In this document: piece by piece, positions 18,044-37,775 of the stretch
How positions within the stretch are numbered: the stretch's first letter is position 1
How the letters are laid out: the number at the start of each line of letters is the position of its first letter
Assembly: GCF_001258055.1 (NCBI RefSeq)
Contig: NZ_CVRM01000031.1
Coordinates: forward strand, 186,001 to 250,000
Length of the DNA: 64,000 nt
Direction: 5' to 3'
Source: Phaeobacter italicus
GTDB taxonomy: Bacteria > Pseudomonadota > Alphaproteobacteria > Rhodobacterales > Rhodobacteraceae
Program-made: the position numbers and the translations under genes
The notes under the pieces: generated by a model
Databases searched by the model: none
Told to the model about the DNA's origin: nothing
The model's input: only the letters and a program-made list of their open reading frames with translations

Positions 18044-18862
18044 GTGCTGCGAATTGACAAACTGACCAAGAGATTCGGTGACAAGGTTGCGGTGGACACT
18101 GCGACGCTGGACATCGACAAGCCCTGCATGATCGGCATCATTGGCCGCTCTGGTGCTGGCAAATCCACCCTGCTTCGGATGATCAACCGACTGGGCGATG
18201 CCACTGAAGGCCGGATCCTGTTCGACGGTCGGGACGTCACCCAGTTGCGCGGCAAGGAAAAGCGGGCCTGGCAGTCTGAGTGCGCGATGATCTTTCAGCA
18301 GTTCAATCTGGTGCCGCGTATGGATGTTGTCTCCAACGTACTGCATGGCACGCTGAACCGGCGCTCGACACTTGCGACCCTCTTCAATCTTTACCCGATG
18401 GACGACATCCACCGCGCCATCGATATTCTCGATCGTCTCGGAATTGCCGAACACGCCGCAAAGCGGGCCGAGGCCTTGTCTGGCGGTCAACAGCAGCGTG
18501 TCGCGATTGCGCGGGCCCTGATGCAGGATCCATCAATCATTCTGGCGGATGAACCGATCGCCTCGCTTGATCCGATGAACGCCCAAACCGTGATGGAGGC
18601 CCTGCGCCGCATTCACGAAGAAGACGGCCGCACTGTCATTGCCAACCTTCATACGCTGGATACTGCCCGCCGTTACTGCGACCGGGTGGTCGGCATGCGC
18701 GACGGGCGGATCGTTTTTGATGGCTTGCCTGAGCAGCTGACCACCGGCGTTGCCCGCGAGATCTATGGCGCTGGAGCCGACTTCTCCGAGGCGGCGACGT
18801 CAACCGAAATTGAAACCCTGAACCGCACGCACCCACGCAAAGAGCCTGTTGCGGTTTTGTGA
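18044..18862 (+). CDS. phnC: Phosphonate ABC transporter ATP-binding protein
   Basis: The protein has 272 residues. Walker A is GRSGAGKST, the signature [15 protein letters not shown], and Walker B IILADEP with the H-loop His in [20 protein letters not shown] and [12 protein letters not shown] are characteristic of PhnC. It powers import of phosphonates (and possibly phosphate esters or phosphite) through PhnE. The GTG start follows ACGGGAG. It is first of four genes in the order C-D-E1-E2, downstream of a Pho box. A hairpin follows before phnD. Confidence 0.95.
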
Positions 18863-18878
18863 GCCCTTTCCCACCACG

Positions 18879-18904
18879 CCCGGTCACGGTCGTGCCGGGA
18901 TTTT
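18879..18904 (+). terminator. Hairpin with short U-tract between phnC and phnD
   Basis: CCCGG-T-CACG pairs with CGTG-CCGGG (18879-18899, one bulged T) and is followed by ATTTT. It looks like a leaky intrinsic terminator or attenuator. It sits 20 bases ahead of the phnD start. Confidence 0.5.
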
Positions 18905-18923
18905 CAATCAGAGAGATGACATC

Positions 18924-19832
18924 ATGAAACGTCTGTTTGCTGCCATTCTGGCCACCACTGCGATGACTGCTCCGGCTGTTGCTGAGACCACCGAAATCAA
19001 GGAATTCCGCATCGGTATCCTTGGCGGCGAGAACGCCCAGGACCGTCTGAACAACAATGAATGTCTGCGCGAGCGCACTGAAGCGCTGCTGGGTGTCGAA
19101 ACCAAGCTGTTTGCTCCGGCTGACTACAACGGTGTCATCCAGGGTCTGCTTGGCGGCACCATCGACATGGCTTGGCTTGGCGCATCCGGTTACGCCAAAA
19201 CCTACCTGTCGGACCCCGAAGCGGTTGAGCCGATCCTCGTGAAGGTGAACAACGATGGCGGCTATGGCTACTACTCAGTTGGCTTTGCCCGCAAGGACAG
19301 CGGAATTACCTCTCTGGAAGATGTCAAAGGCAAAGTCTTTGGTTTCGGTGATCCGAATTCGACCTCCGGCTTCCTGATCCCCTCCATCGAAATTCCCAAC
19401 GCCATTGGCGCGACCATGACATCCGGTGATTACTTTGGTGAGGTGAAATTCACCGGTGGCCACGAACAGACGATTGTTGCTGTGAACAACGGTGACGTGG
19501 ACGCGGGTGTCACCTGGGCCGATGGTCTGGGCGAATGGGAAGATGGCTACAACTCGGGCGCGCTGCGCCGCGCGGTTGATGCCGGTCTCGTTGACATGAA
19601 CGACATGGTGCAGATCTGGCAGTCCAAGCCGATCCCCGAAGGTCCGGTTGTTCTGCGTCGCGATCTGCCCGAAGACGTCAAACTGAAGATGACCGGCCTG
19701 ATGGCGTCCTTGAAGTCCATGGATGCAGACTGCTTCTACGGTGTGGCCGCGGGCGAAGCGAAAGGTTTCATGCCGATCACCCACGACGCCTACGAAGTCA
19801 TCATCGAAGCGCGTAAGCTGAAGTCCAACTAA
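18924..19832 (+). CDS. phnD: Phosphonate ABC transporter periplasmic binding protein
   Basis: The 302-residue precursor has a clear signal peptide, MKRLFAAILATTAMTAPAVA, cleaved before ETTEIKEF. The mature protein follows the PhnD family: FRIGILGGENAQDRL, YNGVIQGLLGGTIDMAWLG with a ligand-contacting aromatic, and FGFGDPNSTSGFLIPS, whose Ser/Thr cluster binds the phosphonate group. It lies between hairpins on both sides. GAGAGATGACATC precedes the ATG, and the upstream in-frame ATG at 18849 is rejected because it would bury the signal peptide. Confidence 0.96.
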   Translation: MKRLFAAILATTAMTAPAVAETTEIKEFRIGILGGENAQDRLNNNECLRERTEALLGVETKLFAPADYNGVIQGLLGGTIDMAWLGASGYAKTYLSDPEAVEPILVKVNNDGGYGYYSVGFARKDSGITSLEDVKGKVFGFGDPNSTSGFLIPSIEIPNAIGATMTSGDYFGEVKFTGGHEQTIVAVNNGDVDAGVTWADGLGEWEDGYNSGALRRAVDAGLVDMNDMVQIWQSKPIPEGPVVLRRDLPEDVKLKMTGLMASLKSMDADCFYGVAAGEAKGFMPITHDAYEVIIEARKLKSN

Positions 19833-19849
19833 TTTTAGCACCAAGGCGT

Positions 19850-19888
19850 GCGGGGTTCGGAGCGTGAGTGCCGGACCCCGCCATTTTT
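19850..19888 (+). terminator. Intrinsic terminator or attenuator after phnD
   Basis: GCGGGGTTCGG (19850-19860) pairs with CCGGACCCCGC (19871-19881; ten pairs plus one G-U), followed by CATTTTT. This is the most terminator-like structure inside the uptake operon. It probably lets the binding protein be made in excess over the permeases. Confidence 0.68.
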
Positions 19889-19957
19889 CGACAGATCAGT
19901 TCCAAACCGCAGGTTCATCTGACGGCATTTGCCCAGATCCTGCCTGTCAGGGCTGAC

Positions 19958-20854
19958 ATGTCCAGCACGACGCAGGTTTCCCTCATGACAGATGTAAGTG
20001 CCGAGGCCCCGAATGTGGCCGATATCCGGGCAGACTACGCCGCGCTGATCCAGCGCAAGCGACTATATGGCGGGGCGCTGCTTGCAGTGTTCGTTGCCAT
20101 GATGGTGGCGGGCTTTCGTGTTGCAGATGATCGCAACGCAGGATCCTTCAGCGATGGGTTCACCCGGATCTTCGACTACCCCGGAGAAGTGCTGAGCGAG
20201 GCCACTGAAAAAGCGGCACAGCTGCCGGGCCATGTCATGACCTTCTTTCCAGCTTTGGTCGAGACGCTGAATATTGCAGCGGCGGCGACCCTGCTGGGGG
20301 CAATCGCAGGCACGGTTCTGTCGTTGCTTGCAACCCGTGGCCTGGCGCGCTGGCCGTCCCTTATTCCGCTGTTCCGCAGGGTGCTGGATATCTGCCGTGC
20401 CATTCCGGAGATCGTCATCGCGCTCGTGCTGATCTTCCTTCTCGGGGGAGGGCCGGTCCCGGCCATGATCGCCATTGCGATCCACACGGCTGGCGCTCTG
20501 GGCAAGCTCTTTTCCGAGGTGAACGAGAACGCGTCGTTGAAGCCGGTTGAGGGGCTGTCATCGGTTGGTGCCAGTTGGGCACAGCGTATGGTTTTGGGCG
20601 TCTTCCCGCAGGTTGGTCCGAACTACGTCAGCTACGCGCTCTTGCGGTTTGAGATCAACATCCGCGCCTCTGCGATCCTCGGCTTCGTGGGCGCGGGCGG
20701 CATCGGCTACGAGCTGCGCAATGCGATGTCCTGGGGGCAGGGCCGCTATGACGAGGCTGCGGCCATTTTCCTGCTTTTGTTCCTGACCATCGTTTTGGTC
20801 GATCAACTGTCCGGCAAACTGCGTGACCGGCTGACCTATGGAGCCCAGTCATGA
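19958..20854 (+). CDS. phnE: Phosphonate ABC transporter permease PhnE, first copy
   Basis: The protein has 298 residues with about six membrane segments. The binding-protein-dependent permease loop (EVNENASLKPVEGLSSVGASWAQR region, EAA-like) contacts PhnC, and GFVGAGGIGYELRNAMSW near the C-terminus is diagnostic of PhnE. Two starts are possible: ATG 19958 with AGGG five bases ahead (chosen) and ATG 19985 with a weaker site. It overlaps the second permease gene by four bases (ATGA), so the pair likely forms a heterodimeric channel. Confidence 0.93.
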   Translation: MSSTTQVSLMTDVSAEAPNVADIRADYAALIQRKRLYGGALLAVFVAMMVAGFRVADDRNAGSFSDGFTRIFDYPGEVLSEATEKAAQLPGHVMTFFPALVETLNIAAAATLLGAIAGTVLSLLATRGLARWPSLIPLFRRVLDICRAIPEIVIALVLIFLLGGGPVPAMIAIAIHTAGALGKLFSEVNENASLKPVEGLSSVGASWAQRMVLGVFPQVGPNYVSYALLRFEINIRASAILGFVGAGGIGYELRNAMSWGQGRYDEAAAIFLLLFLTIVLVDQLSGKLRDRLTYGAQS

Positions 20855-22227
20855 CCACTTTTGATACGTCCGTTCCGCCGACACTGCGCAAGCTGGACAT
20901 GGAACGGCTGTTCCTGCGCAAGCGATTGGTGAGCCTGGCCTTTCCGCTGATCATCCTGGCCTATCTGGTCTACGTCTTTTTTGCCTTTGACGTTCCGGGC
21001 CTTGCTGAGCGGCTGAACCCTCAGAACGCCCGCACCTTGGTGGCGGACAGCTACAGCTACAAGACCCACGTCACCAGGGACAATCGCAGCGGAGAGGTCA
21101 GTGTCGCCATCGAAGGTGAGCGCAAGGGCGCCTATCCGCAGGGTGAAGCACCGGAATGGGTCCAGCTGGCCACCGCGTCCTCAGATGTCACGATAATTGA
21201 TCTGGAGGACGGCTATGTGGTTCGTTTCGGATCTGAAACGGTTGAGTTTGACATCCCCGGCTATGGGACGATCCGTGCAACCCCCAGTCGGAGCGCGGGG
21301 GTTCAGGCAGAATTTCCCGCAGGCGATCTGCCGGATTGGATCAATGCCTCCAAGAACCGCCTTGCAATCACGACAGAGGCGGGTCGCCTGACTGTGACCC
21401 GCAACCGGGCCGAGGTCTTTCGCTACTTCGCAGGCTGGGAACTGTTCTTTTTCACGTTGGACAGCCCCTACCACGGTGTGGGTTTGGGCAAGCTGATGAC
21501 GTTGGCTGCGACCGGAGAAGCTGGCGCAATCTTCCACGACTTCTGGACCAACAAGATGTGGCGCCATCAGGACGTGGCCTGGGCAATTTTCGAAACCCTT
21601 CTGATGGCCTTTCTGGGCACAATGGGGGCTGGCATGATCGCCTTGCCTCTGGCCTTCGCGGCCACCCGTAACTTCATGCCGCTGCGCACCATCCGTTTTG
21701 CGACCCGGCGGCTGTTCGACTTTGTGCGCGGCGTCGACTCTCTGATCTGGACGGTTGTTCTGGCCCGCGCCTTTGGCCCCGGCCCGCTGACCGGCGCGCT
21801 GGCCATTCTGGTGACGGACACCGGCACCTTCGGCAAGATCTTCTCTGAGGCGTTGGAAAACGTCGACCAGAAGCAGATCGAAGGGGTGGCCTCTACCGGG
21901 GCAAAGCCCGCGCAACGCTATCGGTTTGGTGTCATCCCACAGATCACGCCAATTCTGCTGAGCCAGCTTCTCTACTTTCTCGAATCCAACACCCGGTCTG
22001 CCACCATTATCGGTGCCATCACGGGGGGCGGCATCGGTCTGCTGCTGACGCAGGCGATCATCACCCAGAAAGACTGGGAAGAAGTTGCTTACTACATTGT
22101 CCTGATCATTTTGATGGTCATGCTGATGGACTGGCTGTCTGGCTGGTTGCGCAGCCGCCTGATCAAGGGCGAGCAAGGCCGCAAGGGACGTAAAACCAAA
22201 TCGGGCAAAGCCCTACTGCTGCCCTGA
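20851..22227 (+). CDS. phnE: Phosphonate ABC transporter permease PhnE, second copy, with a large periplasmic insert
   Basis: The protein has 458 residues, well over the roughly 270 of a simple PhnE. After one N-terminal helix (about 28-48) comes a soluble stretch of about 150 residues with beta-rich sequence, such as SGEVSVAIEGERKG and VRFGSETVEFDI. The usual permease core follows from about residue 245. The core has the EAA loop (EALENVDQKQIEGVASTGAK) and AITGGGIGLLLTQAI. The insert should face the periplasm. A similar long second PhnE is known in other alphaproteobacteria. It is translationally coupled to the first copy. Confidence 0.92.
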   Translation: MTTFDTSVPPTLRKLDMERLFLRKRLVSLAFPLIILAYLVYVFFAFDVPGLAERLNPQNARTLVADSYSYKTHVTRDNRSGEVSVAIEGERKGAYPQGEAPEWVQLATASSDVTIIDLEDGYVVRFGSETVEFDIPGYGTIRATPSRSAGVQAEFPAGDLPDWINASKNRLAITTEAGRLTVTRNRAEVFRYFAGWELFFFTLDSPYHGVGLGKLMTLAATGEAGAIFHDFWTNKMWRHQDVAWAIFETLLMAFLGTMGAGMIALPLAFAATRNFMPLRTIRFATRRLFDFVRGVDSLIWTVVLARAFGPGPLTGALAILVTDTGTFGKIFSEALENVDQKQIEGVASTGAKPAQRYRFGVIPQITPILLSQLLYFLESNTRSATIIGAITGGGIGLLLTQAIITQKDWEEVAYYIVLIILMVMLMDWLSGWLRSRLIKGEQGRKGRKTKSGKALLLP

Positions 22228-22303
22228 TCCCACCTCGGTCCCGGACGGCTGGCGTATGTTTGCCAGCTGTCCGCTGTCCCCATGTCTGATGCGAGAACGT
22301 CCC

Positions 22304-22918
22304 ATGCCGCGCTTATCTGCCGATACTCCGGTGTTTCATCCAAACAGCCAGATCACCAACAGCGTGTTTGGTGCCTATGTCGAAATCGGTGCCGACACCC
22401 GCATTCTCAACAGCGAGTTCGGGGACTACAGCTATTGCGACAGGGGCTGTGATATTGCCAACGCCCGGATTGGAAAGTTCTCCAACATCGCAAGTGCAAC
22501 CCGGATCGGTGCGACCGATCATCCGCTGGAGAAGGCATCGCTGCACCATTTCCTCTACCGCTCATCCAGCTACTGGGATGATATCGAGGATGATGCAGAA
22601 TGGTTTCAGCACCGGGCCAGCAGGCTTGCGTACATAGGCCATGACACATGGATCGGTCACGGTGCACTGATAAAACCCGAGGTGACAATCGGCCATGGCG
22701 CCGTCGTCGCCTCTGGCAGTGTCGTGACCAAGGATGTCGCGCCCTATACCATTGTCGGTGGCAACACCGCCCGCCTCATCCGTCGCCGATATACCGATGT
22801 GGTCGCTGCAAGAATGATGGAGCTGGCATGGTGGGACTGGGACAATGACAGGATCAAGGCGGCAGTTCCGGATTTTCGCGCGTTGAGTGCAGAGGCATTC
22901 CTGGAAAAATACGCCTGA
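22304..22918 (+). CDS. Hexapeptide-repeat acyltransferase of phosphonate operons
   Basis: The protein has 204 residues. Left-handed beta-helix repeats ([LIV]-G-x-x-x-x) run from ITNSVFGAYVEIGADTRI through RIGKFSNIASATRIGA to AYIGHDTWIGHGALIKPEVTIGHGAVVASGSVVTKDV. The insert with TDHPLEKASLHHFLYR is typical of xenobiotic-type acetyltransferases. Members next to phn genes probably N-acetylate aminophosphonates, the job done by the unrelated GNAT enzyme PhnO in E. coli; that function is inferred. The ATG at 22304 is chosen for its match to the family start, though its ribosome site is weak. Confidence 0.86.
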   Translation: MPRLSADTPVFHPNSQITNSVFGAYVEIGADTRILNSEFGDYSYCDRGCDIANARIGKFSNIASATRIGATDHPLEKASLHHFLYRSSSYWDDIEDDAEWFQHRASRLAYIGHDTWIGHGALIKPEVTIGHGAVVASGSVVTKDVAPYTIVGGNTARLIRRRYTDVVAARMMELAWWDWDNDRIKAAVPDFRALSAEAFLEKYA

Positions 22919-22959: not shown

Positions 22960-23682
22960 CTAGCCCAGATCACCGTCCTCACCGACAGTGAGGGTGACAC
23001 GATCGCCTGCAAACCATGTCCGGCCAAATTCGACAGGCACACCATCCGGATCAGCATTGACCCCTGTGGTCCGCAGGATGGGGCTGCCCTCTGATATCTG
23101 CAGATGCAGCGCCTGCGTCGCAGTAGCGAGCTTGGCGGTGATGCGGGTCTGTACGCGAGTGTAGTCCTCGACTCCGCATCTGCTTAGCGCTGCGGTCACG
23201 GATCGTGTCTCTGTCAGGGCGGCGGGCAGATCGGGAAACCGTTCTGCGGGGAATACGCTCTGAAACAGGGCGATTGGCTGATCGTCGGCCAGGGACAGCC
23301 CGTCGTAGACATGGACAAGCGCACCCGGATCCAGATCCAGGGCCTCGCCCTCTCGTGGACCCGCCGCACGGGTTTCCATAGACAGGATTTTCTTGGCGGG
23401 CGTGCGGCCAAGACGTCCGAGGTTCTGGTGAAACCTCACCCTTTTGCCGATCGGGTAGTCTGTGGGCCGCGAGGCCACAAACACGCCTGCACCCCTGCGC
23501 GCGTGCAACAGACCTTCTTCTGCCATCTCAGCCAGCGCTCTGCGGACCGTGTGGCGGTTGACACCAAAGCGACTGGCCAGCTGCGCCTCAGAAGGCAGCT
23601 TGTCCCCGGTCTGGTAGCGATGCTGCCCGATGTCGTCGGTCAGGGCGATGGCGATGGACTTCCAAACAGGGGTGCGGGCCAT
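22960..23682 (-). CDS. phnF: GntR/HutC-family regulator of phosphonate metabolism
   Basis: The protein has 240 residues. The winged-helix domain KLPSEAQLASRFGVNRHTVR (about 26-45) is followed by a UTRA ligand-binding domain that ends with GVPVEFGRTWFAGDRVTLTV. It is divergent from phnG, and an extended dyad at 23737-23769 is its likely operator. A Pho box overlaps its start codon, so phnF expression and PhoB binding may interfere. In related systems PhnF represses the C-P lyase genes, with an unknown or phosphonate-related signal. Confidence 0.9.
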   Translation of the reverse strand: MARTPVWKSIAIALTDDIGQHRYQTGDKLPSEAQLASRFGVNRHTVRRALAEMAEEGLLHARRGAGVFVASRPTDYPIGKRVRFHQNLGRLGRTPAKKILSMETRAAGPREGEALDLDPGALVHVYDGLSLADDQPIALFQSVFPAERFPDLPAALTETRSVTAALSRCGVEDYTRVQTRITAKLATATQALHLQISEGSPILRTTGVNADPDGVPVEFGRTWFAGDRVTLTVGEDGDLG

Positions 23683-23790: not shown

Positions 23791-24267
23791 ATGACCAACG
23801 AAAATGACATGACGGCGAGCGGCGCCGAGCTGCGGCAAAGCCGCAAAAGCTGGATGAGCCTCCTCGCAACAGCGGATGAAGCGCGTCTGCGTGATCTCTG
23901 GGCGGGTTTTGACCGGAACCCCGATCACAGTTGGCTGCGGGCCCCAGAGGCGGGCGGCGTCATGGTGCGGGGACGAATGGGAGCTGCGGGCGCGCCATTC
24001 AATCTGGGTGAAATGACTGTAACCCGTTGCGCCTTGACCTTGGCCGACGGAACAGTTGGGCACGGTTATGTCCAAGGTCGCAGCAAGGCCAAGGCGGAAA
24101 TCGCCGCCAAGATCGACGCGATGATGCAGACCGATGCTGCAGATGACCTGCACCGGACCATTCTCGTGCCGCTCCTGAAAGCCAAGGAAGACCACCGGAT
24201 GCAGCGCGCCGCCAAAGCGGCTGCAACCAAGGTTGATTTTTTCACAATGGTGCGGGGAGAGGACTGA
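23791..24267 (+). CDS. phnG: C-P lyase core subunit PhnG
   Basis: The protein has 158 residues. It matches the PhnG family over most of its length: RKSWMSLLATADEARL, then GAPFNLGEMTVTRCALTLADGTVGHGYVQGRSKAKAE, which is highly conserved. PhnG is part of the PhnGHIJ core that, with PhnL, replaces adenine of ATP by alkylphosphonate. It is first of the co-directional set, with its stop overlapping the phnH start by one base (TGATG). Confidence 0.95.
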   Translation: MTNENDMTASGAELRQSRKSWMSLLATADEARLRDLWAGFDRNPDHSWLRAPEAGGVMVRGRMGAAGAPFNLGEMTVTRCALTLADGTVGHGYVQGRSKAKAEIAAKIDAMMQTDAADDLHRTILVPLLKAKEDHRMQRAAKAAATKVDFFTMVRGED

Positions 24268-24863
24268 TGACCGCGCAGACATCAAATTCGCATTTTTCAG
24301 GCGGCTTCCGTGATCCGGCCATTCAATCGTCCCACGTGTTTCGTGCTGCAATGACAGCAATGGCGCGCCCGGGTGAGATCAAACCGATCACGGGTGCGAC
24401 CCCGCCAGAGGGTTTGTCGATTGCGGCTGGTTGTCTTCTGCTGACGCTGTGTGACCCTGAAACCAGTCTCTATCTTGCGCCTGATGTCGATCATCCGGCC
24501 GTACGGGATTGGATCACCTTCCATACAGGCGCCCCATTTGTTCCTGCGCAAGATGCGGATTTTGCGGTTGGGGGATGGGCCGCGCTGACCCCGTTTGATC
24601 GCTTCCGCATCGGGACGTCCGAATATCCCGACCGCTCCGCCACACTGATCGTTGAACTGCCGTCCTTTGATGCCCCGAATGCCGAATTGAGCGGACCGGG
24701 CATCAAGACACGTGCCGAAATCACGCTGCCCGATATCGAAGTGCTGCAGGCCAATGCCGCGCTGTTTCCGCTGGGCTTTGACACCTATTTCACCGCCGCC
24801 AGTGACATCTGCGCGTTGCCACGGTCCAGCCGGATCGAACCGCTGCTCATGAAGGAGGGCTGA
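24267..24863 (+). CDS. phnH: C-P lyase core subunit PhnH
   Basis: The protein has 198 residues. Family landmarks are GGFRDPAIQSSHVFRAAMTAMARPG at the N-terminus, LTLCDPETSLYL, and GIKTRAEITLP. PhnH has a PLP-transferase-like fold but no bound PLP in E. coli, and is needed in the PhnGHIJ complex. It begins one base inside the phnG stop codon and is followed by phnI after three bases. Confidence 0.95.
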   Translation: MTAQTSNSHFSGGFRDPAIQSSHVFRAAMTAMARPGEIKPITGATPPEGLSIAAGCLLLTLCDPETSLYLAPDVDHPAVRDWITFHTGAPFVPAQDADFAVGGWAALTPFDRFRIGTSEYPDRSATLIVELPSFDAPNAELSGPGIKTRAEITLPDIEVLQANAALFPLGFDTYFTAASDICALPRSSRIEPLLMKEG

Positions 24864-24866
24864 GAG

Positions 24867-25976
24867 ATGTATGTTGCCGTAAAAGGGGGCGAGCGGGCGA
24901 TTGACAATGCCCACGCCTGGCTGGCCGAGGAGCGCCGGGGAGATACTTCGATTGCCGAACTCAGCCTCGCACAGATCCGCGAACAACTGGGCCTCGCGGT
25001 AAACCGCGTGATGGCTGAGGGCTCGCTTTATGATCCGGATCTCGCGGCGCTGGCGATCAAGCAGGCACGTGGGGATCTGATTGAAGCGATTTTCCTGATC
25101 CGCGCCTACCGCACCACCCTGCCGCGTTTCGGCGCATCTGACCCGGTGGACACCGGCCGCATGAGCTGTGACCGCCGGATCTCTGCCACCTTCAAGGATG
25201 CGCCCGGTGGGCAGGTTCTTGGGCCGACGTTCGATTACACCCATCGTTTGCTGGATTTCAAATTGGCAGCCGAGAGCGACCGCGAAGATCTGCCAGAGAC
25301 CCAGACCGCTGAGCCGCGTAGCGAAGACACACCACATATCCTGTCGTTTCTGGATGGCGAGAACATCATTGAACAGGAACCACGGACGGACGCAGAGCCG
25401 GGCGATTTGACCCGTGAACCAATGTCCTTTCCTGCCGGGCGGGCGGTGCGTTTGCAGTCGCTGACCCGCGGAGATGAGGGCTTTATTCTAGGCATGGCCT
25501 ATTCCACGCAGCGCGGCTACGCCCGCAACCATGCCTTTGTTGGCGAGTTGCGGATCGGCAGCGTGCCGGTGGAAATGGAGATCCCGGAACTCGGCTTTGC
25601 CATTGAGATCGGCGAGATAGAGCTGACCGAATGCGAGACCGTGAACCAGTTCAAAGGCTCCAAGACAGTGCCGCCACAGTTTACCCGCGGCTACGGGCTG
25701 GTGTTCGGTCAGTCAGAGCGAAAATCCATTGCCATGGCGCTGGTCGACCGGGCGCTGCGCTGGGAGGAACTGGGCGAAGACAACCTTGGTGCCCCTGCCC
25801 AGGATGAAGAATTCGTCCTGAGCCACGCCGACAACATCCAGGCCACCGGTTTCCTCGAGCATATCAAGCTGCCGCATTACGTGGATTTCCAATCCGAACT
25901 GGAACTGGTGCGCAAACTGCGCCGCGAGGCGGCGGAGCTGGCGGAACAAATGGCCGCAAGGGAGGCGGCACAATGA
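24867..25976 (+). CDS. phnI: C-P lyase core subunit PhnI
   Basis: The protein has 369 residues, the usual PhnI length. MYVAVKGGERAIDNAH is the conserved start, and MAYSTQRGYARNHAFVGELRIG, GEIELTECETVNQF and LPHYVDFQSELELVRKLR are family signatures. PhnI is the nucleosidase-like subunit that, with G, H and L, forms ribose 1-phosphonate 5-triphosphate from ATP. The gap to phnJ is about 40 bases and contains the phnJ ribosome site. Confidence 0.96.
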   Translation: MYVAVKGGERAIDNAHAWLAEERRGDTSIAELSLAQIREQLGLAVNRVMAEGSLYDPDLAALAIKQARGDLIEAIFLIRAYRTTLPRFGASDPVDTGRMSCDRRISATFKDAPGGQVLGPTFDYTHRLLDFKLAAESDREDLPETQTAEPRSEDTPHILSFLDGENIIEQEPRTDAEPGDLTREPMSFPAGRAVRLQSLTRGDEGFILGMAYSTQRGYARNHAFVGELRIGSVPVEMEIPELGFAIEIGEIELTECETVNQFKGSKTVPPQFTRGYGLVFGQSERKSIAMALVDRALRWEELGEDNLGAPAQDEEFVLSHADNIQATGFLEHIKLPHYVDFQSELELVRKLRREAAELAEQMAAREAAQ

Positions 25977-26018
25977 ACGGCGTATGCCAAAGGGCCAATT
26001 TCACGAAAGGTGCCCAAG

Positions 26019-26876
26019 ATGTCTGACTACAACTTTGCATATCTCGACGAACAGACCAAGCGGATGATCCGCAGGGCAATCCTGAAGGGGCTGGCGGTGC
26101 CGGGCTATCAGGTCCCTTTTGCCAGCCGTGAAATGCCCATGCCCTACGGCTGGGGCACGGGGGGCGTGCAGGTATCGGCTGCGACATTGACACCGGAGGA
26201 TACGCTGAAGGTCATTGATCAGGGTGCCGATGACACCACGAATGCGGTTTCCATCCGCAAGTTCTTTGAAAACACCGCTGGCGTGGCCACCACCGAAGAA
26301 ACCGAAAAGGCCAGTGTGATCCAGACCCGGCACAGGATTCCGGAGGCCGAGCTGAGTGAGGATCAGATCCTTGTCTATCAGGTCCCGATCCCGGAGCCGC
26401 TGCGTTTTCTTGAGCCCCGTGAAACCGAAACGCGCAAGATGCACGCCTTGCAGGAATATGGGCTGATGCACGTGAAACTCTACGAAGACATCAGCCAGCA
26501 TGGCGCCATTGCCACCTCATATGCGTATCCCGTGAAGGTCGCAGGTCGCTATGTGACGGATCCCTCGCCGATCCCGAAATTCGACAATCCGAAAATGAAC
26601 ATGGCTGCGATCCAACTGTTTGGCGCGGGACGTGAACAGCGGATCTATGCAGTGCCGCCTTACACCGAAGTCGTCTCGCTTGATTTCGAGGATTTCCCGT
26701 TTGAGGCCAGCAAGGCCGATCATCCCTGTGATCTCTGCGCGGCAGAGGACAGCTATCTGGATGAGGTGATCCTGGATGATGCGGGGAACCGGATGTTTGT
26801 CTGCTCGGATACGGATTATTGCCGGTCCCGGCGCGATGCGGGCCATATGGGTCGCCTGAGTGAGGAGGCCGCGTGA
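26019..26876 (+). CDS. phnJ: C-P lyase radical-SAM enzyme PhnJ
   Basis: The protein has 285 residues. The diagnostic cysteine cluster is intact near the C-terminus: Cys237 and Cys240 (CDLC), Cys262 and Cys268, spaced C-x2-C-x21-C-x5-C as in E. coli PhnJ. The first three hold the [4Fe-4S] cluster and the last is the radical-transfer Cys. It cleaves the carbon-phosphorus bond of ribose 1-alkylphosphonate 5-phosphate, releasing the alkane (methane from methylphosphonate) and a 1,2-cyclic ribose phosphate. GAAAGG eight bases before ATG 26019 supports that start over the GTG at 26010. Confidence 0.97.
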   Translation: MSDYNFAYLDEQTKRMIRRAILKGLAVPGYQVPFASREMPMPYGWGTGGVQVSAATLTPEDTLKVIDQGADDTTNAVSIRKFFENTAGVATTEETEKASVIQTRHRIPEAELSEDQILVYQVPIPEPLRFLEPRETETRKMHALQEYGLMHVKLYEDISQHGAIATSYAYPVKVAGRYVTDPSPIPKFDNPKMNMAAIQLFGAGREQRIYAVPPYTEVVSLDFEDFPFEASKADHPCDLCAAEDSYLDEVILDDAGNRMFVCSDTDYCRSRRDAGHMGRLSEEAA

Positions 26877-27646
26877 TGACGCCGCTGTTGCAAGTAAAGA
26901 ACCTGGCCAAGATGTATGGTGCCCGAATTGGCTGCACGGATGTGAGCTTTGACCTTTATCCGGGCGAGGTCATGGGCATCGTTGGGGAAAGCGGATCGGG
27001 CAAATCGACCCTGCTGAACAGCATGGCCGGGCATCTGACACCGGATCGTGGCGAAGTGATTTTTGACACCCGGGCAGACGGGCCTGTGGACACGGTGACC
27101 ATGTCCGAACCGGCACGCCGCATGTTGGGGCGCACGGATTGGGCCTTTGTGCATCAGCACGCCCGCGATGGGTTGCGGATGTCTGTGTCAGCTGGCGGCA
27201 ATATCGGGGAACGGCTGATGGCGGTGGGGGATCGCAACTATGGCAACATCCGCGCCCGCGCAGCCGATTGGCTGGGCCGTGTCGAGATTGCCGAAAGTCG
27301 GATTGATGATCGTCCTTCCGCTTTCTCCGGTGGGATGCAGCAGCGGTTGCAGATTGCCCGCAACCTCGTCACCGGGCCGCGGCTTGTCTTTATGGATGAG
27401 CCGACGGGCGGGCTGGATGTTTCGGTTCAGGCGCGCCTTTTGGATCTGCTGCGTAACCTTGTGCGCGAAATGGGGTTGAGCGCGATCATCGTGACCCATG
27501 ATCTCGCGGTGGTGCGTCTTTTGGCGGATCGGCTGATGGTGATGAAAGATGGCCGTGTCGTGGAAACCGGTCTCACCGATCAGGTGCTGGATGATCCGCA
27601 GCACGCCTACACCCAGTTGCTGGTTTCCAGCGTTCTTCAGGTCTGA
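26876..27646 (+). CDS. phnK: C-P lyase ABC-type protein PhnK
   Basis: The protein has 256 residues. Walker A is GESGSGKST, the signature FSGGMQQRLQIARNL, Walker B LVFMDEPTGGLD and the H-loop IIVTHD. PhnK resembles peptide-transporter ATPases, but binds the PhnGHIJ core and is not part of an importer. GAGGAGG lies seven bases before ATG 26876, so the GTG at 26873 is not used. The ATG overlaps the phnJ stop by one base. Confidence 0.95.
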   Translation: MTPLLQVKNLAKMYGARIGCTDVSFDLYPGEVMGIVGESGSGKSTLLNSMAGHLTPDRGEVIFDTRADGPVDTVTMSEPARRMLGRTDWAFVHQHARDGLRMSVSAGGNIGERLMAVGDRNYGNIRARAADWLGRVEIAESRIDDRPSAFSGGMQQRLQIARNLVTGPRLVFMDEPTGGLDVSVQARLLDLLRNLVREMGLSAIIVTHDLAVVRLLADRLMVMKDGRVVETGLTDQVLDDPQHAYTQLLVSSVLQV

Positions 27647-27655
27647 GGATCCGAG

Positions 27656-28339
27656 ATGATTGAACTTCAAAACGTGAGCAAGAGCTTTACCCTGCACAAT
27701 CAGGGCGGCGCCGTCATCCCGGTGATGGAGGGGGCAAGTCTTGGCGTCGCGCCGGGAGAATGCATTGGTCTGACCGGTGCCTCGGGGGCCGGGAAATCGA
27801 CCCTGATGCGGGTGATTTATGGAAATTACCTCGCAGCATCCGGCCGTGTGATGGTGGGGGGCGTCGACGTCGCCAAGGCAGCGCCGCGTGACATTCTGGC
27901 GTTGCGTCGCGAGACACTTGGCTATGTGAGTCAGTTCTTGCGCGTCGTGCCACGGGTGCCGACGTTGGATGTCGTAGCAGAGCCGCTGCTGGCGGTGGGC
28001 GTTGCGCCTGATGCCGCGCGGGACCGCGCCGCGACGTTGTTGGCAGGGCTGAACATCCCGGAACGGCTGTGGCAGCTGAGCCCGACGACGTTTTCTGGCG
28101 GCGAGCAACAGCGGGTCAATATCGCGCGGGGGTTTGCACATAGCTATCCGGCGATGCTGCTGGATGAGCCGACCGCCAGTCTGGACGCTCAGAACAGAGC
28201 TACGGTCCTGCGGTTGATCGAGGAAGCCAAGGCGCGCGGTGCCGCCATCATCGGAATTTTCCACGACGAGGCTGCGCGCGAGCAGGTCTGCGATCGATGT
28301 GTTGATGTGTCGGCCTTCACTCCAAAGGTTGCAGCATGA
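27656..28339 (+). CDS. phnL: C-P lyase ABC-type protein PhnL
   Basis: The protein has 227 residues. Walker A is GASGAGKST, the signature FSGGEQQRVNIARGF and Walker B AMLLDEPTASLD. It also has VSQFLRVVPRVPTLDVVAEPL, which is typical of PhnL. It is required with PhnGHI for the nucleophilic transfer of phosphonate onto ATP. It overlaps phnN by four bases (ATGA). Confidence 0.95.
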   Translation: MIELQNVSKSFTLHNQGGAVIPVMEGASLGVAPGECIGLTGASGAGKSTLMRVIYGNYLAASGRVMVGGVDVAKAAPRDILALRRETLGYVSQFLRVVPRVPTLDVVAEPLLAVGVAPDAARDRAATLLAGLNIPERLWQLSPTTFSGGEQQRVNIARGFAHSYPAMLLDEPTASLDAQNRATVLRLIEEAKARGAAIIGIFHDEAAREQVCDRCVDVSAFTPKVAA

Positions 28340-28908
28340 GCCCGCGACCCGTCAAAGCGCCAGTCATCGCAGTTGTTGGGCCATCCGGTGTCGGCAAAGA
28401 CAGCCTGATGGATGCGATGCTGACACGTATTCCCGGTTTGAAAAAACAGCGCAGGGTCATCACCCGCGCACCGGAACTTGGGGGCGAAGACTATGTGGCT
28501 GTGAGCGAGACACAGTTTGCAGACCTTTGTGCTGAGCGCAGTTTTGCGCTGCACTGGCAGGCGCATGGGCTCTATTATGCGATCCCGCGTGAGATTGACG
28601 CCTTGCGCCGCTCGGCATCCGGCGTCGTCGTCAACCTGTCCCGCAAAGCGCTTTTGGAGGCGCAGGATGTTTTCAGTACATTGATTGTGCTGTCGGTAAC
28701 AGCCACGCCAGAGGTATTGGCTGCCCGGCTGAATGCGCGCGGGCGCGAAGATCGCGCGGAGGTCGAGCGTAGGCTTGCCCGCGCGTCGACGCCGCTCCCT
28801 GCGGGGCTTCTGCATGTGGTCGAGATCGACAACAGCGGCCCGCTTGACGCGGCGGTAGCGGCCGCCGAGGCGGCCCTGACCCCCTGGCTTCAGCCCGAGA
28901 GGGCCTGA
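28336..28908 (+). CDS. phnN: Ribose 1,5-bisphosphate phosphokinase
   Basis: The protein has 190 residues with a guanylate-kinase-like P-loop, VVGPSGVGKDSLMDAML, at the N-terminus, and ITRAPELGGEDYVAVSE as in PhnN. It phosphorylates ribose 1,5-bisphosphate to PRPP, returning C-P lyase ribose to nucleotide synthesis. Its last 19 bases overlap the 3' end of the reverse-strand DUF1045 gene. phnM, normally in the same run, comes only after that gene. Confidence 0.94.
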   Translation: MSPRPVKAPVIAVVGPSGVGKDSLMDAMLTRIPGLKKQRRVITRAPELGGEDYVAVSETQFADLCAERSFALHWQAHGLYYAIPREIDALRRSASGVVVNLSRKALLEAQDVFSTLIVLSVTATPEVLAARLNARGREDRAEVERRLARASTPLPAGLLHVVEIDNSGPLDAAVAAAEAALTPWLQPERA

Positions 28909-29573
28909 CGATGGATAAGGTGGAATCGACCGTTGCTGTCTTCGCCGACCAAGGCGAGATCATCGATGACAAAAGGTGTCGGAATTTCGGGAAGCAGACG
29001 TTCCTGCAGGAACGCTTCGATTGCGGGCAATTCGGCCTTCGGGCGTTTGCCGCTCAGCGTGATGTGAAAGCGGAAACTGTCGCCAACATAGGGATAGCCC
29101 CAGGACACCAGCGCCTGTTCCTGCGCCGCGCTCAGACCACCTGCGCGCCGCTTTTCCAGCTCTGCCGTCGAGGCAGGGGCGCGAAACTCGTCCAGATCCC
29201 GCACGCAGTTGAATGCCAGCCTGTTCAGCGCCAGCTGATCCCCGGTCGGGCAAAGCGCAAGAAAACGGCCAAGCCGGGTCAGCGACAGCCCTTCCAACGT
29301 GACCGGTGCGGCCTGCGCCGCGAAATCGGCAAAACGGTCTGCCAATCCATCGGCACTCATGCCTGCAGCCAGCCGGAACGGCGGTTTGATCGTCGCGTGC
29401 AGCCCGTATTTGCGCGGCACCTCGGTAATGGCCGCCACATCCAGATCTGTGCCCGTCGGGTGATCCAGCGGTTGCCCCTCATGCAGATCCCAGCCCAGCC
29501 AGCTGGATGCAAATCGGCTCCATTCCGCCTGTTTGGGCGGCACAAAATAGATCGCGTATCGCGTGAATGTCAC
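28890..29573 (-). CDS. DUF1045 phosphonate-metabolism protein, 2H-phosphoesterase-like
   Basis: The protein has 227 residues. Two His-x-Thr motifs, LHATIKPPF (about residue 55) and RFHITLSGKR (about 165), are the paired catalytic signature of the 2H phosphoesterase fold that acts on cyclic phosphates. Proteins of this family travel with C-P lyase genes. No phnP is present in the window, so it may open 5-phosphoribosyl 1,2-cyclic phosphate to ribose 1,5-bisphosphate, the PhnN substrate; that is an inference. The GTG start has AGGAGG five bases ahead. It lies opposite the operon with its own Pho-type promoter. Confidence 0.87.
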   Translation of the reverse strand: MTFTRYAIYFVPPKQAEWSRFASSWLGWDLHEGQPLDHPTGTDLDVAAITEVPRKYGLHATIKPPFRLAAGMSADGLADRFADFAAQAAPVTLEGLSLTRLGRFLALCPTGDQLALNRLAFNCVRDLDEFRAPASTAELEKRRAGGLSAAQEQALVSWGYPYVGDSFRFHITLSGKRPKAELPAIEAFLQERLLPEIPTPFVIDDLALVGEDSNGRFHLIHRQALSG

Positions 29574-29597: not shown

Positions 29598-29632
29598 TCT
29601 ATAGCTCAAATCGTGTGAAAGTCAGATGACAG
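29598..29632 (-). promoter_or_regulatory. phoA-like Pho promoter of the DUF1045 gene, overlapping the phnM start
   Basis: On the reverse strand CTGTCAT (29632-29626) and CTTTCAC (29621-29615) are separated by four bases, making an 18-bp Pho box. Eleven bases further is TATAGA (29603-29598) as a -10. This is the arrangement of a classical PhoB-activated promoter. The first repeat coincides with the ATG of phnM on the other strand. Confidence 0.78.
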
Positions 29633-30768
29633 AACCTTTGATCCTTGCCAATGCCACGCTTGTTCTGCCGGGAGAGACCCGTACAGGTTCCATCACGCTG
29701 AAAGATGGGCTGTTCGCCGATATTGCTGACGGCACTTCCGTCCCTGCCGGTGCTTTGGACATGGAGGGGGACTATGTCAGTCCCGGTCTGGTAGAGCTGC
29801 ACACCGACAATCTCGAACGTCACATCCAGCCCCGTCCAAAGGTCGACTGGCCCCATGCCGCCGCCATCATTGCCCATGATGCGGAACTGGCCGGAACTGG
29901 AATTACGACGGTGTTTGATGCGATGCGGGTGGGGTCGATCAAGGCCACGGAGTCCCGCTACGGCGCCTATGCCCGAAGCCTTGCAAGCGAATTGCTGGAG
30001 CTGAGGCATCAGGATGCGTTGAAAATCAGCCACTTCCTACATCTGCGCGCGGAGGTCTGTTCGGAGACGCTGGTGGCCGAACTGGATGAGTTTGGCGATG
30101 CCGATCGCGTGGGGCTGGTTTCTTTGATGGATCACACACCAGGCCAGCGTCAGTTTCGCGACATGTCCAAACTGGAAGCCTACGTCAAAGGCAAGCACGG
30201 GTTCGACGACGAGGGGTTCAAGGCGCATGTTGCTGGGCTAAAGCGAATGCGGGACACCTATGGCGATCTGCACGAGGTGGAGGCAGTCAAGGCTGCGCGT
30301 CGTTTTGGTGCTGTGCTGGCAAGCCACGATGACACGACCGAAGCGCAGGTCGCGGTTTCCGCCGGGCACGGCATCCATCTGGCAGAGTTCCCAACAACGG
30401 TTGAGGCTGCGCGCGCCTGTCACGACCATGAGATCAAGGTCATGATGGGGGCGCCCAACCTCATTCGTGGCGGGTCCCATTCCGGAAACGTCGCCGCACG
30501 TGAGCTGGCCGAACTGGAACTACTGGATATCCTGTCATCTGACTACGTGCCTGCGGCTTTGCTGTTGGCCGCAGCGCAGTTGGGCGAGATCTGGGGCGAT
30601 ATGGCCAGAGGGCTGGCAACAGTCACCGCAGCACCTGCGGATGCTGTCAAACTGGCAGATCGCGGACGGATCGACATCGGGAAACGCGCAGATTTGATCC
30701 GTTTCCGTATGCGGGCCGGGGTTCCTGCACTGCGGGCAGTCTGGTCGCGTGGCAATCGGGTGGCTTGA
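29626..30768 (+). CDS. phnM: Alpha-D-ribose 1-methylphosphonate 5-triphosphate diphosphatase
   Basis: The protein has 380 residues of the amidohydrolase superfamily. GLVELHTDNLERHIQPRP carries the metal-binding His residues, followed by TTVFDAMRVGS, SLMDHTPGQRQF and ASHDDTTEAQV, all PhnM signatures. It removes pyrophosphate from the 5-triphosphate so PhnJ can act. The ribosome site (GAAAG) is modest. It stands apart from phnG-N because of the intervening reverse gene, so it needs its own promoter or readthrough past that gene. A hairpin follows. Confidence 0.95.
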   Translation: MTEPLILANATLVLPGETRTGSITLKDGLFADIADGTSVPAGALDMEGDYVSPGLVELHTDNLERHIQPRPKVDWPHAAAIIAHDAELAGTGITTVFDAMRVGSIKATESRYGAYARSLASELLELRHQDALKISHFLHLRAEVCSETLVAELDEFGDADRVGLVSLMDHTPGQRQFRDMSKLEAYVKGKHGFDDEGFKAHVAGLKRMRDTYGDLHEVEAVKAARRFGAVLASHDDTTEAQVAVSAGHGIHLAEFPTTVEAARACHDHEIKVMMGAPNLIRGGSHSGNVAARELAELELLDILSSDYVPAALLLAAAQLGEIWGDMARGLATVTAAPADAVKLADRGRIDIGKRADLIRFRMRAGVPALRAVWSRGNRVA

Positions 30769-31319: not shown

Positions 31320-32078
31320 TCAGCTTTTCCTTTCTTCAAAAACCCAAGGCCGGGCAGGGCCTGCCAGCAGGCGACGCAAGAGATCCTCGCAAAAGGCCCA
31401 GATGGCGTCATCGTGGACAAGATGGTGGGTGAGGATGCCATAGGGCTCATCATTGTCGGCCTTACCCAGCCTGCGATCGGCCAATTGTTTGACCAGCTGA
31501 GACAGCAAGAGGGTAGGCGCCACCAGTGAACGGGTTCCCTTCCAGTCGATCGGGTCAAGATGCGTGTTGACCCGCAAAAGCCCGGGAGCCGCCTTGACCT
31601 GGCTGCGCGGGGTAAAGGTCGACAGCGCGCTATAACCAAGCCCGGCAAGCCAGGGTTCCAGATCCTCTGACAGGCGGTTCCAAGGGGGGACGAACATCGG
31701 TTGCAGCCCTGAGCCAAAGAGACGCTCCAGCGTTTTCAGGCCACGTTCTGCGTCATCAAGAGCGTCATCCACCACCCGATCCGCACCGAATTCGGATTTC
31801 TTCTGGTCGGGGGCGGCGTGGTTTTCATGGGCCCAGCCGTGCACAACCGGAATTGCAGTTGCAGTTCCTGACAGGCGCTTTGCAAGTTCGGGCGTCGCGT
31901 CACGGGGGATGATTGCAAGGTGAACGGGGAGTGAAAGCTGTTCTGACAAAGCCAACAACTGCTCCAACTGTGGTGTCGGGGCAATCGCGTCGTCATCGCG
32001 CCACCAGATCGGAAGGGTCATCCCCGCCTCCTGCCAGCGAGCAAGCTCCTGATCCAAAGCAGTCCAGTCCGGTGTCAT
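31320..32078 (-). CDS. Polysaccharide-deacetylase-like protein
   Basis: The protein has 252 residues of the NodB/carbohydrate esterase 4-like fold. PIWWRDDDAIAPT has the catalytic Asp cluster, VVHGWAHENHA the zinc His pair, and PMFVPPWNRLSEDLEPWLAGLGYSALS the later motif. No signal peptide is seen, so it may act on a cytoplasmic lipid-linked or nucleotide-linked sugar. It overlaps the upstream glycosyltransferase gene by four bases and directly precedes the small methyltransferase. Confidence 0.8.
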   Translation of the reverse strand: MTPDWTALDQELARWQEAGMTLPIWWRDDDAIAPTPQLEQLLALSEQLSLPVHLAIIPRDATPELAKRLSGTATAIPVVHGWAHENHAAPDQKKSEFGADRVVDDALDDAERGLKTLERLFGSGLQPMFVPPWNRLSEDLEPWLAGLGYSALSTFTPRSQVKAAPGLLRVNTHLDPIDWKGTRSLVAPTLLLSQLVKQLADRRLGKADNDEPYGILTHHLVHDDAIWAFCEDLLRRLLAGPARPWVFEERKS

Positions 32079-33211
32079 GCGCGCTCCTGTGCCATGTTGG
32101 CGGCAATCTCTACCGTTCGGGCGGCGCCGTCAAACCGGAAGCTGTCGCAGTCCCGCGCAGGGGCTGCGAGCACGCTGTCCAGCGATTGGCAAAGGGTCTT
32201 GCCCGTCAGATCCTTGGCGCGCAGCGCCGCGAACCCGTCAAGCGGCGCGAGGCTTTGGGCGCGCAGAGATTGCTCGACCTCGTTTCCTGCATCGAAGGGC
32301 ACAATGACGGCGGGCAATCCGGTCTGCAGCAGGTCCAATGCGGTGTTGTAGCCGCACATGCTGACAGAGGCTTTGGCGTGGCACAGCATCTGACGAAAAT
32401 CCGGGCGGGCCGGTTCCAGAATAGCGGGGGCGGTCGGGTCTTTCAGATCATCAATCCGCGACGTGGCATCCGCCCCGCCGACAAGCAGACGCCACGTCAG
32501 ATCAGGCCGCAGGGTGGAGGCCTCGATTGCCGCACGGTACAGCGCATCACCAACGCTGCCGCCCCCTGCGCTGACCAGAATTTCGCCTGCTCCTGCACCA
32601 TCCGGATGAGGTGTCGGCGCTGCGGGGGCAACGTAGCCGGTGTAATGTAATTTTGCAGCAAGGGCCGGGCTAACGGGCCAGGACACCTCCAGCCGGGTGG
32701 CTTGGGGGTCGGAATGCACAAGAACGCCGTCATAGTAGCGCGAGATGATCTCTTCGGCCTGTTCTGCCTTTTTGGGCTTGGAGGGTGGCGCCAGAATATC
32801 GCGGATAGAGGCGAGCACGATCGGGCGACGGGGCAGGCGATGTGCGGCCTCAAGCAAGGCATTGAACTCAGCTCGCAGACTGCGCCGCCCAAAGGGGTAG
32901 AGCTCGGTTATCAATATGTCCGGCTGCATGGTCTGCAACGCTGCGCAGGCCATGTCGCGTCGGGAACGGTGGTAAAGCTCGTCCGCGACACTGCCATCCG
33001 GCGTGAGCAGGCGGGTGAAATCCACCCCGTCCGATCGCAGCGGCGGCAGCTGCAAGAGATCCACGCCGGAGTGGTCAAGCTGGGGCGCGGGGCCGCCTCC
33101 TGACAGAATCTGCACCTTGTGACCCTGGGCAACAAAAGCGCGCGCAAGTGTCAGGGCGCGGGCCAGATGCCCGGTGCCCAAGAGGTGGGTGACAGCGATC
33201 AGAACGTTCAT
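32075..33211 (-). CDS. Glycosyltransferase, MurG/GT28-like fold (COG4671 type)
   Basis: The protein has 378 residues. The N-terminus ITHLLGTGHLARALTLA has the GxGHxxR motif of GT-B enzymes, and the C-terminal nucleotide-sugar site reads SMCGYNTALDLLQTGLPAVIVPF. It should transfer a sugar from a UDP-like donor to an unknown acceptor at the inner face of the membrane. It is related in design to the first gene of the operon (36151-37362), with the same GGYNT/CGYNT signature. It is ATGA-coupled to its neighbours on both sides. Confidence 0.84.
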   Translation of the reverse strand: MNVLIAVTHLLGTGHLARALTLARAFVAQGHKVQILSGGGPAPQLDHSGVDLLQLPPLRSDGVDFTRLLTPDGSVADELYHRSRRDMACAALQTMQPDILITELYPFGRRSLRAEFNALLEAAHRLPRRPIVLASIRDILAPPSKPKKAEQAEEIISRYYDGVLVHSDPQATRLEVSWPVSPALAAKLHYTGYVAPAAPTPHPDGAGAGEILVSAGGGSVGDALYRAAIEASTLRPDLTWRLLVGGADATSRIDDLKDPTAPAILEPARPDFRQMLCHAKASVSMCGYNTALDLLQTGLPAVIVPFDAGNEVEQSLRAQSLAPLDGFAALRAKDLTGKTLCQSLDSVLAAPARDCDSFRFDGAARTVEIAANMAQERA

Positions 33212-33795
33212 GAAGCGTCCCGTTTCAGCAGGCGCACGGGCTCTTCGACAGGGCGGAGGCTGCTGCCGTCCAGCTCCACGATGAACAGTCGGTTTCGTTT
33301 GATCCGAAACGGTGCGGGCCCGTCAAAATTCCAGCCATGTGCCTTGGCCAGGATCATACGCATGATGCCGATATGACAGACTGCTACGCTGTCACGGGTC
33401 AGGCCTGCGAGCCAGGGCTCGATCCTGTCCCAGACATCCTGCGGGCTTTCGCCATTGGGTGGGCGATAGTGCCAGCCCCAGTCCTCGATATCGCGAAACC
33501 CGCTGTCAGGATCGGCCTTGAGGTCGACACCCTGTTTGCCTTCCCAATCCCCCCAGTTCATTTCAATCAGAGCGGCGGAGGTCTTGGGCGCGTGGCTTGC
33601 GACCAGTTCTGCGGTTTCTGCGGCCCGCATCAGAGGGCTGGCCCAGAGTTCGGCCTTGTCCCAGGGAGTGGGCAGGGTCTGGGCCGCGAGCTCGGCGCGG
33701 GCATCTTCGTCCAACGCGATATCGCTGCGCCCCTGAATGCGGCCTGCGCGGTTCCAGGGTGTGTGGCCGTGGCGCAAGAGGGCAAGGCGGATCAT
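33208..33795 (-). CDS. Histidine phosphatase (phosphoglycerate-mutase-like)
   Basis: The protein has 195 residues. The phosphorylated His lies in ALLRHGHTPWN near the N-terminus, and the second catalytic His in VAVCHIGIMRM, with EMNWGDWEGK between, as in the broad phosphatase branch. It may dephosphorylate a sugar phosphate or a lipid-linked intermediate of the pathway. ATG 33795 overlaps the upstream glycosyltransferase stop by four bases and follows GGAG, so the longer upstream extension is rejected. Confidence 0.88.
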   Translation of the reverse strand: MIRLALLRHGHTPWNRAGRIQGRSDIALDEDARAELAAQTLPTPWDKAELWASPLMRAAETAELVASHAPKTSAALIEMNWGDWEGKQGVDLKADPDSGFRDIEDWGWHYRPPNGESPQDVWDRIEPWLAGLTRDSVAVCHIGIMRMILAKAHGWNFDGPAPFRIKRNRLFIVELDGSSLRPVEEPVRLLKRDAS

Positions 33796-37362: not shown

Positions 37363-37775
37363 TGCGGGGCCTGCGTCTGTGAAAGAGGAGAGAGATGCCA
37401 CTGTGCCTTTTGCTGGACCCATCGCAACAGGTCCGCAGAGCCTGCGGGGGTGCGTGTCTGCTCGGCTGTCTTCCGCCTCAGCATGGTCTCGCCTCAGGTT
37501 GCGCGGCCTGACACGCAAAGGGCCAAGGCACTGGTCATCACTGCGTCTACGTGCAGAAGGCAAACAACGTGGTGGCACGGATGGCCCCGAAGCTGTCTAA
37601 ACCTGCGCATAGTCACGCTGATTTTCTATAGCGTGGGGCACGGTCAGTTGCAATCAAGCGCTGCAATCCTCGCATTTTTGTGGTGCAGAGCTGCCATTTC
37701 CACCCTCAGGCTTGATATTTTGGGGATTTTGCTGGCTTGGTGAAAGACAAGAAAGATAGGGGAGGGCGCGTTTTG
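37363..37775. other. 413-base divergent intergenic region
   Basis: No credible gene is seen. It must hold the promoters of the glycan operon (leftward) and of the MscS gene (rightward). CACGCT (37614) and AGCGTG (37630) form a 6-base inverted repeat with a 10-base AT-rich centre. No Pho box with 11-base period was found. GGGGAGGG at 37759-37766 is the MscS ribosome site. Confidence 0.5.

Follow-up and report, generated by a model that had tools for sequence, protein, structure and literature searches.

DUF1045, a 2H-phosphoesterase-like protein, as the probable substitute for PhnP in a Phaeobacter italicus C-P lyase cluster, and its pairing with PhnM in genomes where no C-P lyase was found

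We analysed a 64,000-nucleotide stretch of the Phaeobacter italicus genome (contig NZ_CVRM01000031.1, positions 186,001 to 250,000; hereafter the window), which contains a complete carbon-phosphorus (C-P) lyase cluster with a gene of the DUF1045 family inside it. An initial annotation, made from the sequence alone, had recognised this open reading frame as a DUF1045 protein, had placed it between phnN and phnM, and had proposed that it replaces the phosphodiesterase PhnP. Both the identification and the position hold, and the gene, whose strand had not been stated, lies on the minus strand. The genes and the regulatory candidate at the locus are as follows.

28890..29573, minus strand: DUF1045 2H phosphoesterase of 227 amino acids, proposed phosphoribosyl 1,2-cyclic phosphate phosphodiesterase (motifs H59xT61 and H170xT172)
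18044..22227, plus strand: transporter genes phnC, phnD, phnE and phnE2 (profile match)
22256..22918, plus strand: phosphonate-associated hexapeptide transferase (TIGR03308, a hypothetical equivalog)
22960..23682, minus strand: phnF regulator (profile match)
23791..24267, plus strand: phnG (profile match)
24267..24863, plus strand: phnH (profile match)
24867..25976, plus strand: phnI (PF05861, 544 bits)
26010..26876, plus strand: phnJ, C-P lyase (PF06007, 471 bits)
26873..27646, plus strand: phnK (profile match)
27656..28339, plus strand: phnL (profile match)
28336..28908, plus strand: phnN, ribose 1,5-bisphosphokinase, convergent with DUF1045 (TIGR02322, 164.6 bits over a cut-off of 156)
29615..29632, minus strand: Pho-box-like site CTGTCATCTGACTTTCAC, reading towards DUF1045 (pattern search; two mismatches to CTGTCATNNNNCTGTCAT, which we take to be the Pho-box consensus)
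29626..30768, plus strand: phnM, divergent from DUF1045 (TIGR02318, 418.5 bits over 390.55)

The DUF1045 gene begins with GTG, with AGGAGG a few bases upstream as a good ribosome site. Its 3' end overlaps that of the convergent phnN by 19 bases, and its start lies back to back with that of phnM, 52 bases away. Many loci of the window's family, the Rhodobacteraceae, share this arrangement: at 50 of 80 named DUF1045 loci (the best 80 of 590 found) at least two core genes (phnG to phnL), phnN and a divergent phnM lie within reach. The closest relatives of the protein among these loci, for example in Ruegeria, Pseudophaeobacter and Leisingera, are 60-66% identical to it and place the organism in the Roseobacter group.

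Membership of the DUF1045 family is clear from the PF06299 profile, which the protein matches with 174.6 bits, over the cut-off of 24.3. Of the two profiles for the wider 2H family, PF02834 gives 26.1 bits over its cut-off of 23.3, without any single stretch passing, and PF13563 gives 25.0 bits, below its cut-off of 27; at E ≤ 0.01 PF13563 is matched by 31 of 37 DUF1045 members and PF02834 by 23. The two HxT/S motifs of the 2H superfamily are present as H59-A-T61 and H170-I-T172, so that the HAT and HIT motifs of the initial annotation stand and their approximate positions, near 55 and 165, are corrected. In an alignment of 77 rows (the best match from each of 76 loci plus the window protein) H59 is kept in 77, T61 in 74, H170 in 76, the one row lacking it being truncated, and T172 in 72. 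The predicted structure has the 2H fold, with Escherichia coli LigT and Bacillus subtilis YjcG as its best structural matches and a further fold match to the Arabidopsis cyclic phosphodiesterase CPDase (1jh6, 1fsi) at 10-13% identity. Our search for a solved DUF1045 structure found none, the sole weak match being YjcG (E 0.23). PhnP is a phosphodiesterase of the metallo-β-lactamase fold. The matches of the window protein do not include the PhnP profile, TIGR03307, and with its predicted 2H fold it is not a PhnP, although it may work like one.

In one family (f10), second copies of DUF1045 at three loci (L055, L059 and L062) no longer have either active-site threonine and have also lost further conserved residues, which the phn-linked copy in the same genomes retains. 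In another genome (G194) broken DUF1045 pieces lie within a second phn cluster.

The absence of phnP noted earlier for the window extends to the whole genome, where no gene exceeds the TIGR03307 cut-off of 272.25 bits. The best match (C10:5500-6273) reaches 56.2 bits, on which ground we rejected a true PhnP elsewhere in the genome; it belongs to a gene beside what we take to be tatD-like and holB-like genes. This weak match means little, since at E ≤ 1 the model matches all 14 of 14 control genomes while exceeding its cut-off in one.

We then counted phnJ, DUF1045 and PhnP, each scored over its curated cut-off, across the same 398 Pseudomonadota genomes. Among the 83 genomes with phnJ, 62 carry DUF1045, 19 carry PhnP, none carries both and two carry neither. 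DUF1045 is associated with phnJ (Fisher 3e-44) and set apart from PhnP (8e-17), these and all later Fisher tests ignoring kinship. The total of 71 DUF1045 genomes includes G210 and G288, although a tblastn search of their loci (L013, L014) with the window protein gave no match. In all 19 of the genomes with PhnP, its gene is 3.9-4.6 kb away from phnJ. For DUF1045, 48 of 78 places have a phnJ no more than 20 kb away, a tally that excludes the G194:C103 pieces and the under-cut-off matches at G249:C44 and G371. Among the other 30 places, the seven that were examined (L020, L023, L024, L052, L053, L056 and L057) adjoin phnM and phnN elsewhere in the genome; loci L001-L005 are excluded from the neighbourhood tables. 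Within the window's family, sampled as 179 genomes with nearly one per genus, DUF1045 is present in 79 of the 80 genomes with phnJ, one of which (G548) carries broken phnJ pieces only.

How DUF1045 would fit into the pathway follows from the chemistry on either side of the missing step. PhnJ makes 5-phosphoribosyl 1,2-cyclic phosphate (PRcP), a ribose 1,2-cyclic phosphate, and PhnP supplies PhnN with ribose 1,5-bisphosphate (PMC3840354 and PMC10574752; these and the other papers cited here are represented by partial text). The 2H-fold DUF1045 protein would hydrolyse PRcP to ribose 1,5-bisphosphate, taking the PhnP step with an unrelated fold, and PhnN would then phosphorylate this product to phosphoribosyl pyrophosphate (PRPP). 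One HxT histidine would activate water and the other would donate a proton to O2 as the leaving group, so that the phosphate stays on C1; both phosphates may be bound by R5 and R131, which are invariant, and by K63 and R142, which are nearly so. The known regiochemistry of the 2H fold fits this step because Arabidopsis CPDase, which shares the fold, likewise has a ribose 1,2-cyclic phosphate as its substrate. Taking together fold, motifs, gene position, the exclusion of PhnP, the near-constant presence in family genomes with phnJ, and the Pho-box-like site, we consider it likely that the DUF1045 protein performs the PhnP step in this C-P lyase pathway, as the initial annotation had suggested.

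The gene would be transcribed alone and in the opposite direction to the main operon; a PhoB-type promoter may drive it. The CTGTCATCTGACTTTCAC site overlaps the phnM start codon, and a TATAG-like -10 element follows about ten bases further on. When up to three mismatches are allowed, the pattern has 10 matches in the window as a whole against 4.9 expected, a count of 10 being reached by 3 of 100 shuffles. The first half-site alone proves little, since it coincides in part with the phnM start codon read in reverse. Conservation across relatives is better evidence than the single site: with a mark of at least 11 of 14 letters in the 200 upstream bases, which about 1% of single-letter shuffles attain, matches occur in 25 of 64 C-P-lyase-linked relatives, in 6 of 17 relatives with phnJ elsewhere in the genome, and in none of the 27 DUF1045 upstream regions from phnJ-less genomes (Fisher against the phnJ-less set, 5e-5 for the linked relatives and 0.002 for those with phnJ elsewhere). 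The count excludes L128 (truncated), L179, and L161 (short upstream region). By eye, no second half-site was seen in the stand-alone pairs of phnJ-less genomes. A DUF1045 protein of Phaeobacter MED193 appears with PhnI, PhnJ, PhnL and PhnM in a table of the phosphorus-stress response (PMC10132767, partial text).

Several observations weigh against the assignment or its supports. The protein falls 1.7 bits short of the cut-off of TIGR03223, 'putative phosphonate metabolism protein' (247.3 against 248.95 bits), with a match at E 1.4e-73 covering profile positions 2-227 of 228. The mutual exclusion of DUF1045 and PhnP mostly reflects a division between lineages, only family f43 mixing the two (G246 with DUF1045, G366 with PhnP), and the Fisher value of 8e-17 therefore overstates it. 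G374 and G377 (loci L015 and L016) carry C-P lyase clusters without PhnP or DUF1045, and in G522, of the window's family, phnJ lies on a 5.1-kb contig and no DUF1045 was found; hence another enzyme can fill the PhnP step. In four family genomes with phnJ (G299, G325, G321 and G319) the sole DUF1045 found is distant from the phn genes and would have to act in trans. A second two-mismatch Pho-box match (8734-8751) sits inside an unrelated reading frame, which together with the chance matches expected makes the single site weak, and 39 of the 64 C-P-lyase-linked relatives fall below the 11-letter mark. Our literature search, which extended to the papers cited here, found no enzymatic assay of a DUF1045 protein. 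Finally, DUF1045 persists with an intact active site in genomes that have no phnJ, and PRcP made by PhnJ therefore cannot be its sole substrate everywhere.

This last point bears on the most substantial alternative, that DUF1045 is an enzyme for the general repair or salvage of ribose phosphates which works with PhnM-family proteins and was recruited by C-P lyase clusters, where it would do the PhnP step as well as something else. DUF1045 is less tied to C-P lyase than PhnP is: PhnP is found in 0 of the 315 phnJ-less genomes of the 398-genome set and DUF1045 in nine, two of them by weak matches. A PhnM-family gene is present in six of the seven genomes with strong matches and in 0 of 20 comparison genomes that have neither phnJ nor DUF1045; these 20 were taken from the top of the list and not at random, and all belong to the window's class. 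In the window's family 34 of 99 phnJ-less genomes keep DUF1045; with PhnM-family scored at E ≤ 1e-40, 29 genomes have both, five DUF1045 alone, three PhnM-family alone and 62 neither (Fisher 1.3e-16, or 3.3e-16 without G483, which is an assembly gap in that its contig begins at phnK). PhnM exceeds its cut-off in 11 of the 29, G483 included, and eight of these 11 (L180-L187) have an adjacent divergent phnM/DUF1045 pair as in the window, with no phnG to phnL seen nearby. A phnF homologue lies close to the pair at L180 and L186; L187 is the least sure of the eight, since its contig ends at DUF1045 and its genome is in 690 contigs. At L182 the protein encoded 3' of phnM is presumably a PHP-domain phosphoesterase. 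Of the 28 named loci that have no core genes close by, 13 are in genomes with phnJ elsewhere and 15 in genomes where none was found; Tropicimonas isoalkanivorans (L168) retains phnM, DUF1045 and phnN with no phnJ found.

The active site in these genomes is kept. Both HxT motifs are intact in 27 of 27 phnJ-less rows, and a 13-position signature is complete in 25 of 27, the other two differing solely at R142 (L179 excluded). We accordingly rejected decay of the stand-alone copies, which keep both histidines and both threonines in every phnJ-less row. That they form one separate subfamily was likewise rejected, since they are scattered in the tree: among 110 family rows (L128 and L179 excluded, bootstrap not settled) 21 changes are required to account for the phnJ-less rows, well supported branches forcing at least 11 of them, and in a wider 77-row tree 16 orphans need nine changes, at least six of them forced.

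The co-occurrence with PhnM-family genes in both genome sets, the divergent pairs and the shared signature thus favour the recruitment explanation. Against it, PhnN was not found in six of the seven strong phnJ-less genomes, so that ribose bisphosphate would not reach PRPP that way; five phnJ-less family genomes have DUF1045 without a PhnM-family gene; phnJ can be missed in drafts, as in G483 and perhaps G550 (89% complete, 690 contigs); and no substrate is known for such a general role. We regard this explanation as rather unlikely. What the data do suggest is a second role for DUF1045 beside PhnM. We put forward tentatively, as a possibility on the doubtful side, that DUF1045 and a PhnM-family protein form a C-P-lyase-independent pair for ribose-phosphate salvage or repair, kept by many Rhodobacteraceae, and that C-P lyase clusters use the same enzyme. 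Such a pair, which has no recognisable Pho box, would be kept after C-P lyase was lost or without its ever having been present. That the role is repair or salvage on ribose phosphates is a guess; one possible substrate would be the cyclic phosphate that forms on spontaneous breakdown of PRPP.

At one further locus without C-P lyase core genes (L143) phnM and DUF1045 lie about 5 kb apart. At L012 phnM, DUF1045 and phnN are adjacent, and in a relative (L040) phnF to phnL separate phnM from DUF1045; the genome of L012 (G322) has no phnJ match among those listed.

Two other alternatives to the PhnP step are very improbable. The fold matches to CPDase and LigT would allow DUF1045 to act on ADP-ribose or RNA cyclic phosphates. 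However, KptA (PF01885), the maker of ADP-ribose cyclic phosphate, was found neither in the window's genome nor in six of the seven strong phnJ-less DUF1045 genomes, on which ground a main function in KptA-made ADP-ribose cyclic phosphate was rejected, and RNA repair would leave the phnM/phnN link and the PhnP exclusion unexplained. Equally improbable is an accessory or regulatory DUF1045 protein with the PhnP step left to the housekeeping PhnP-like gene at C10:5500-6273, since that gene, although present, scores 56 against 272 bits with a model that matches every control genome, and the conserved 2H active site and the PhnP exclusion would be unexplained.

Among known proteins, PhnP (TIGR03307) shares the proposed step with DUF1045, is mutually exclusive with it in the 398 genomes, and is unrelated in fold and sequence. 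LigT and YjcG share the predicted 2H fold, and the substrates of LigT are cyclic phosphates of nucleotides or RNA (PMC5283653, partial text). Arabidopsis CPDase differs from the window protein in that its substrate is ADP-ribose cyclic phosphate. Another non-PhnP answer to ribose 1,2-cyclic phosphate is PhnPP of Eggerthella lenta, a PHP-domain enzyme that makes ribose 5-phosphate and is unrelated to DUF1045.

The replacement of PhnP by DUF1045 has already been proposed in print, citing older work. In the partial texts, a 2H protein is said likely to do the work of PhnP (PMC3840354), rcsF occurs in 16 operons without phnP among 54 surveyed (PMC10574752), and DUF1045 is labelled a putative phosphoribosyl cyclic phosphodiesterase, citing reference 26 of that paper (PMC8235418). 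On our own reading of these papers, 'RcsF' and DUF1045 are one family: the DUF1045, TIGR03223 or 'RcsF' proteins of C-P lyase operons in Sinorhizobium, Aminobacter, Phaeobacter and marine fosmids are of the same kind, lie in the same cluster and have the same proposed role. Nothing essential separates the window from these operons, its opposite-strand gene being the common arrangement in its family. The reference behind the phosphodiesterase label is reportedly a 2014 review by Hove-Jensen and colleagues, and Podzelinska 2009, a 2014 review and Mazumder 2002 are said to have first proposed the idea or defined the superfamily. For a role of DUF1045 and PhnM without C-P lyase our literature searches listed no description, and this pairing is the new part here.

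A second PhnM-like gene lies elsewhere in the window's genome (G000:C37:108975-109976; about 270 bits, under the TIGR02318 cut-off), and a gene of this second type also occurs in three phnJ-less relatives (L086, L087 and L088). Its neighbours there are presumably purK-like and Nudix-like genes in all three, with a groEL-like gene adjoining in two. Second phnM copies outside the operon are described in PMC9381506 (partial text). Beside the phn cluster of the window, 32075-37578 on the minus strand holds a run of glycosyltransferase-like genes including one histidine-phosphatase gene.

C-P lyase converts methylphosphonate to methane and phosphate in the sea, and it is DUF1045, not the PhnP of E. 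coli, that 62 of the 83 surveyed phnJ genomes carry for the phosphate-recovering step. This assignment has been a proposal for more than a decade, and the present counts make it firmer; the replacement is a sound finding and, to C-P lyase specialists, an ordinary one. The phnM/DUF1045 pairs without C-P lyase raise the question of which cyclic or triphosphorylated ribose they handle and, if the salvage or repair pair is real, PhnM too would have a substrate outside phosphonate breakdown.
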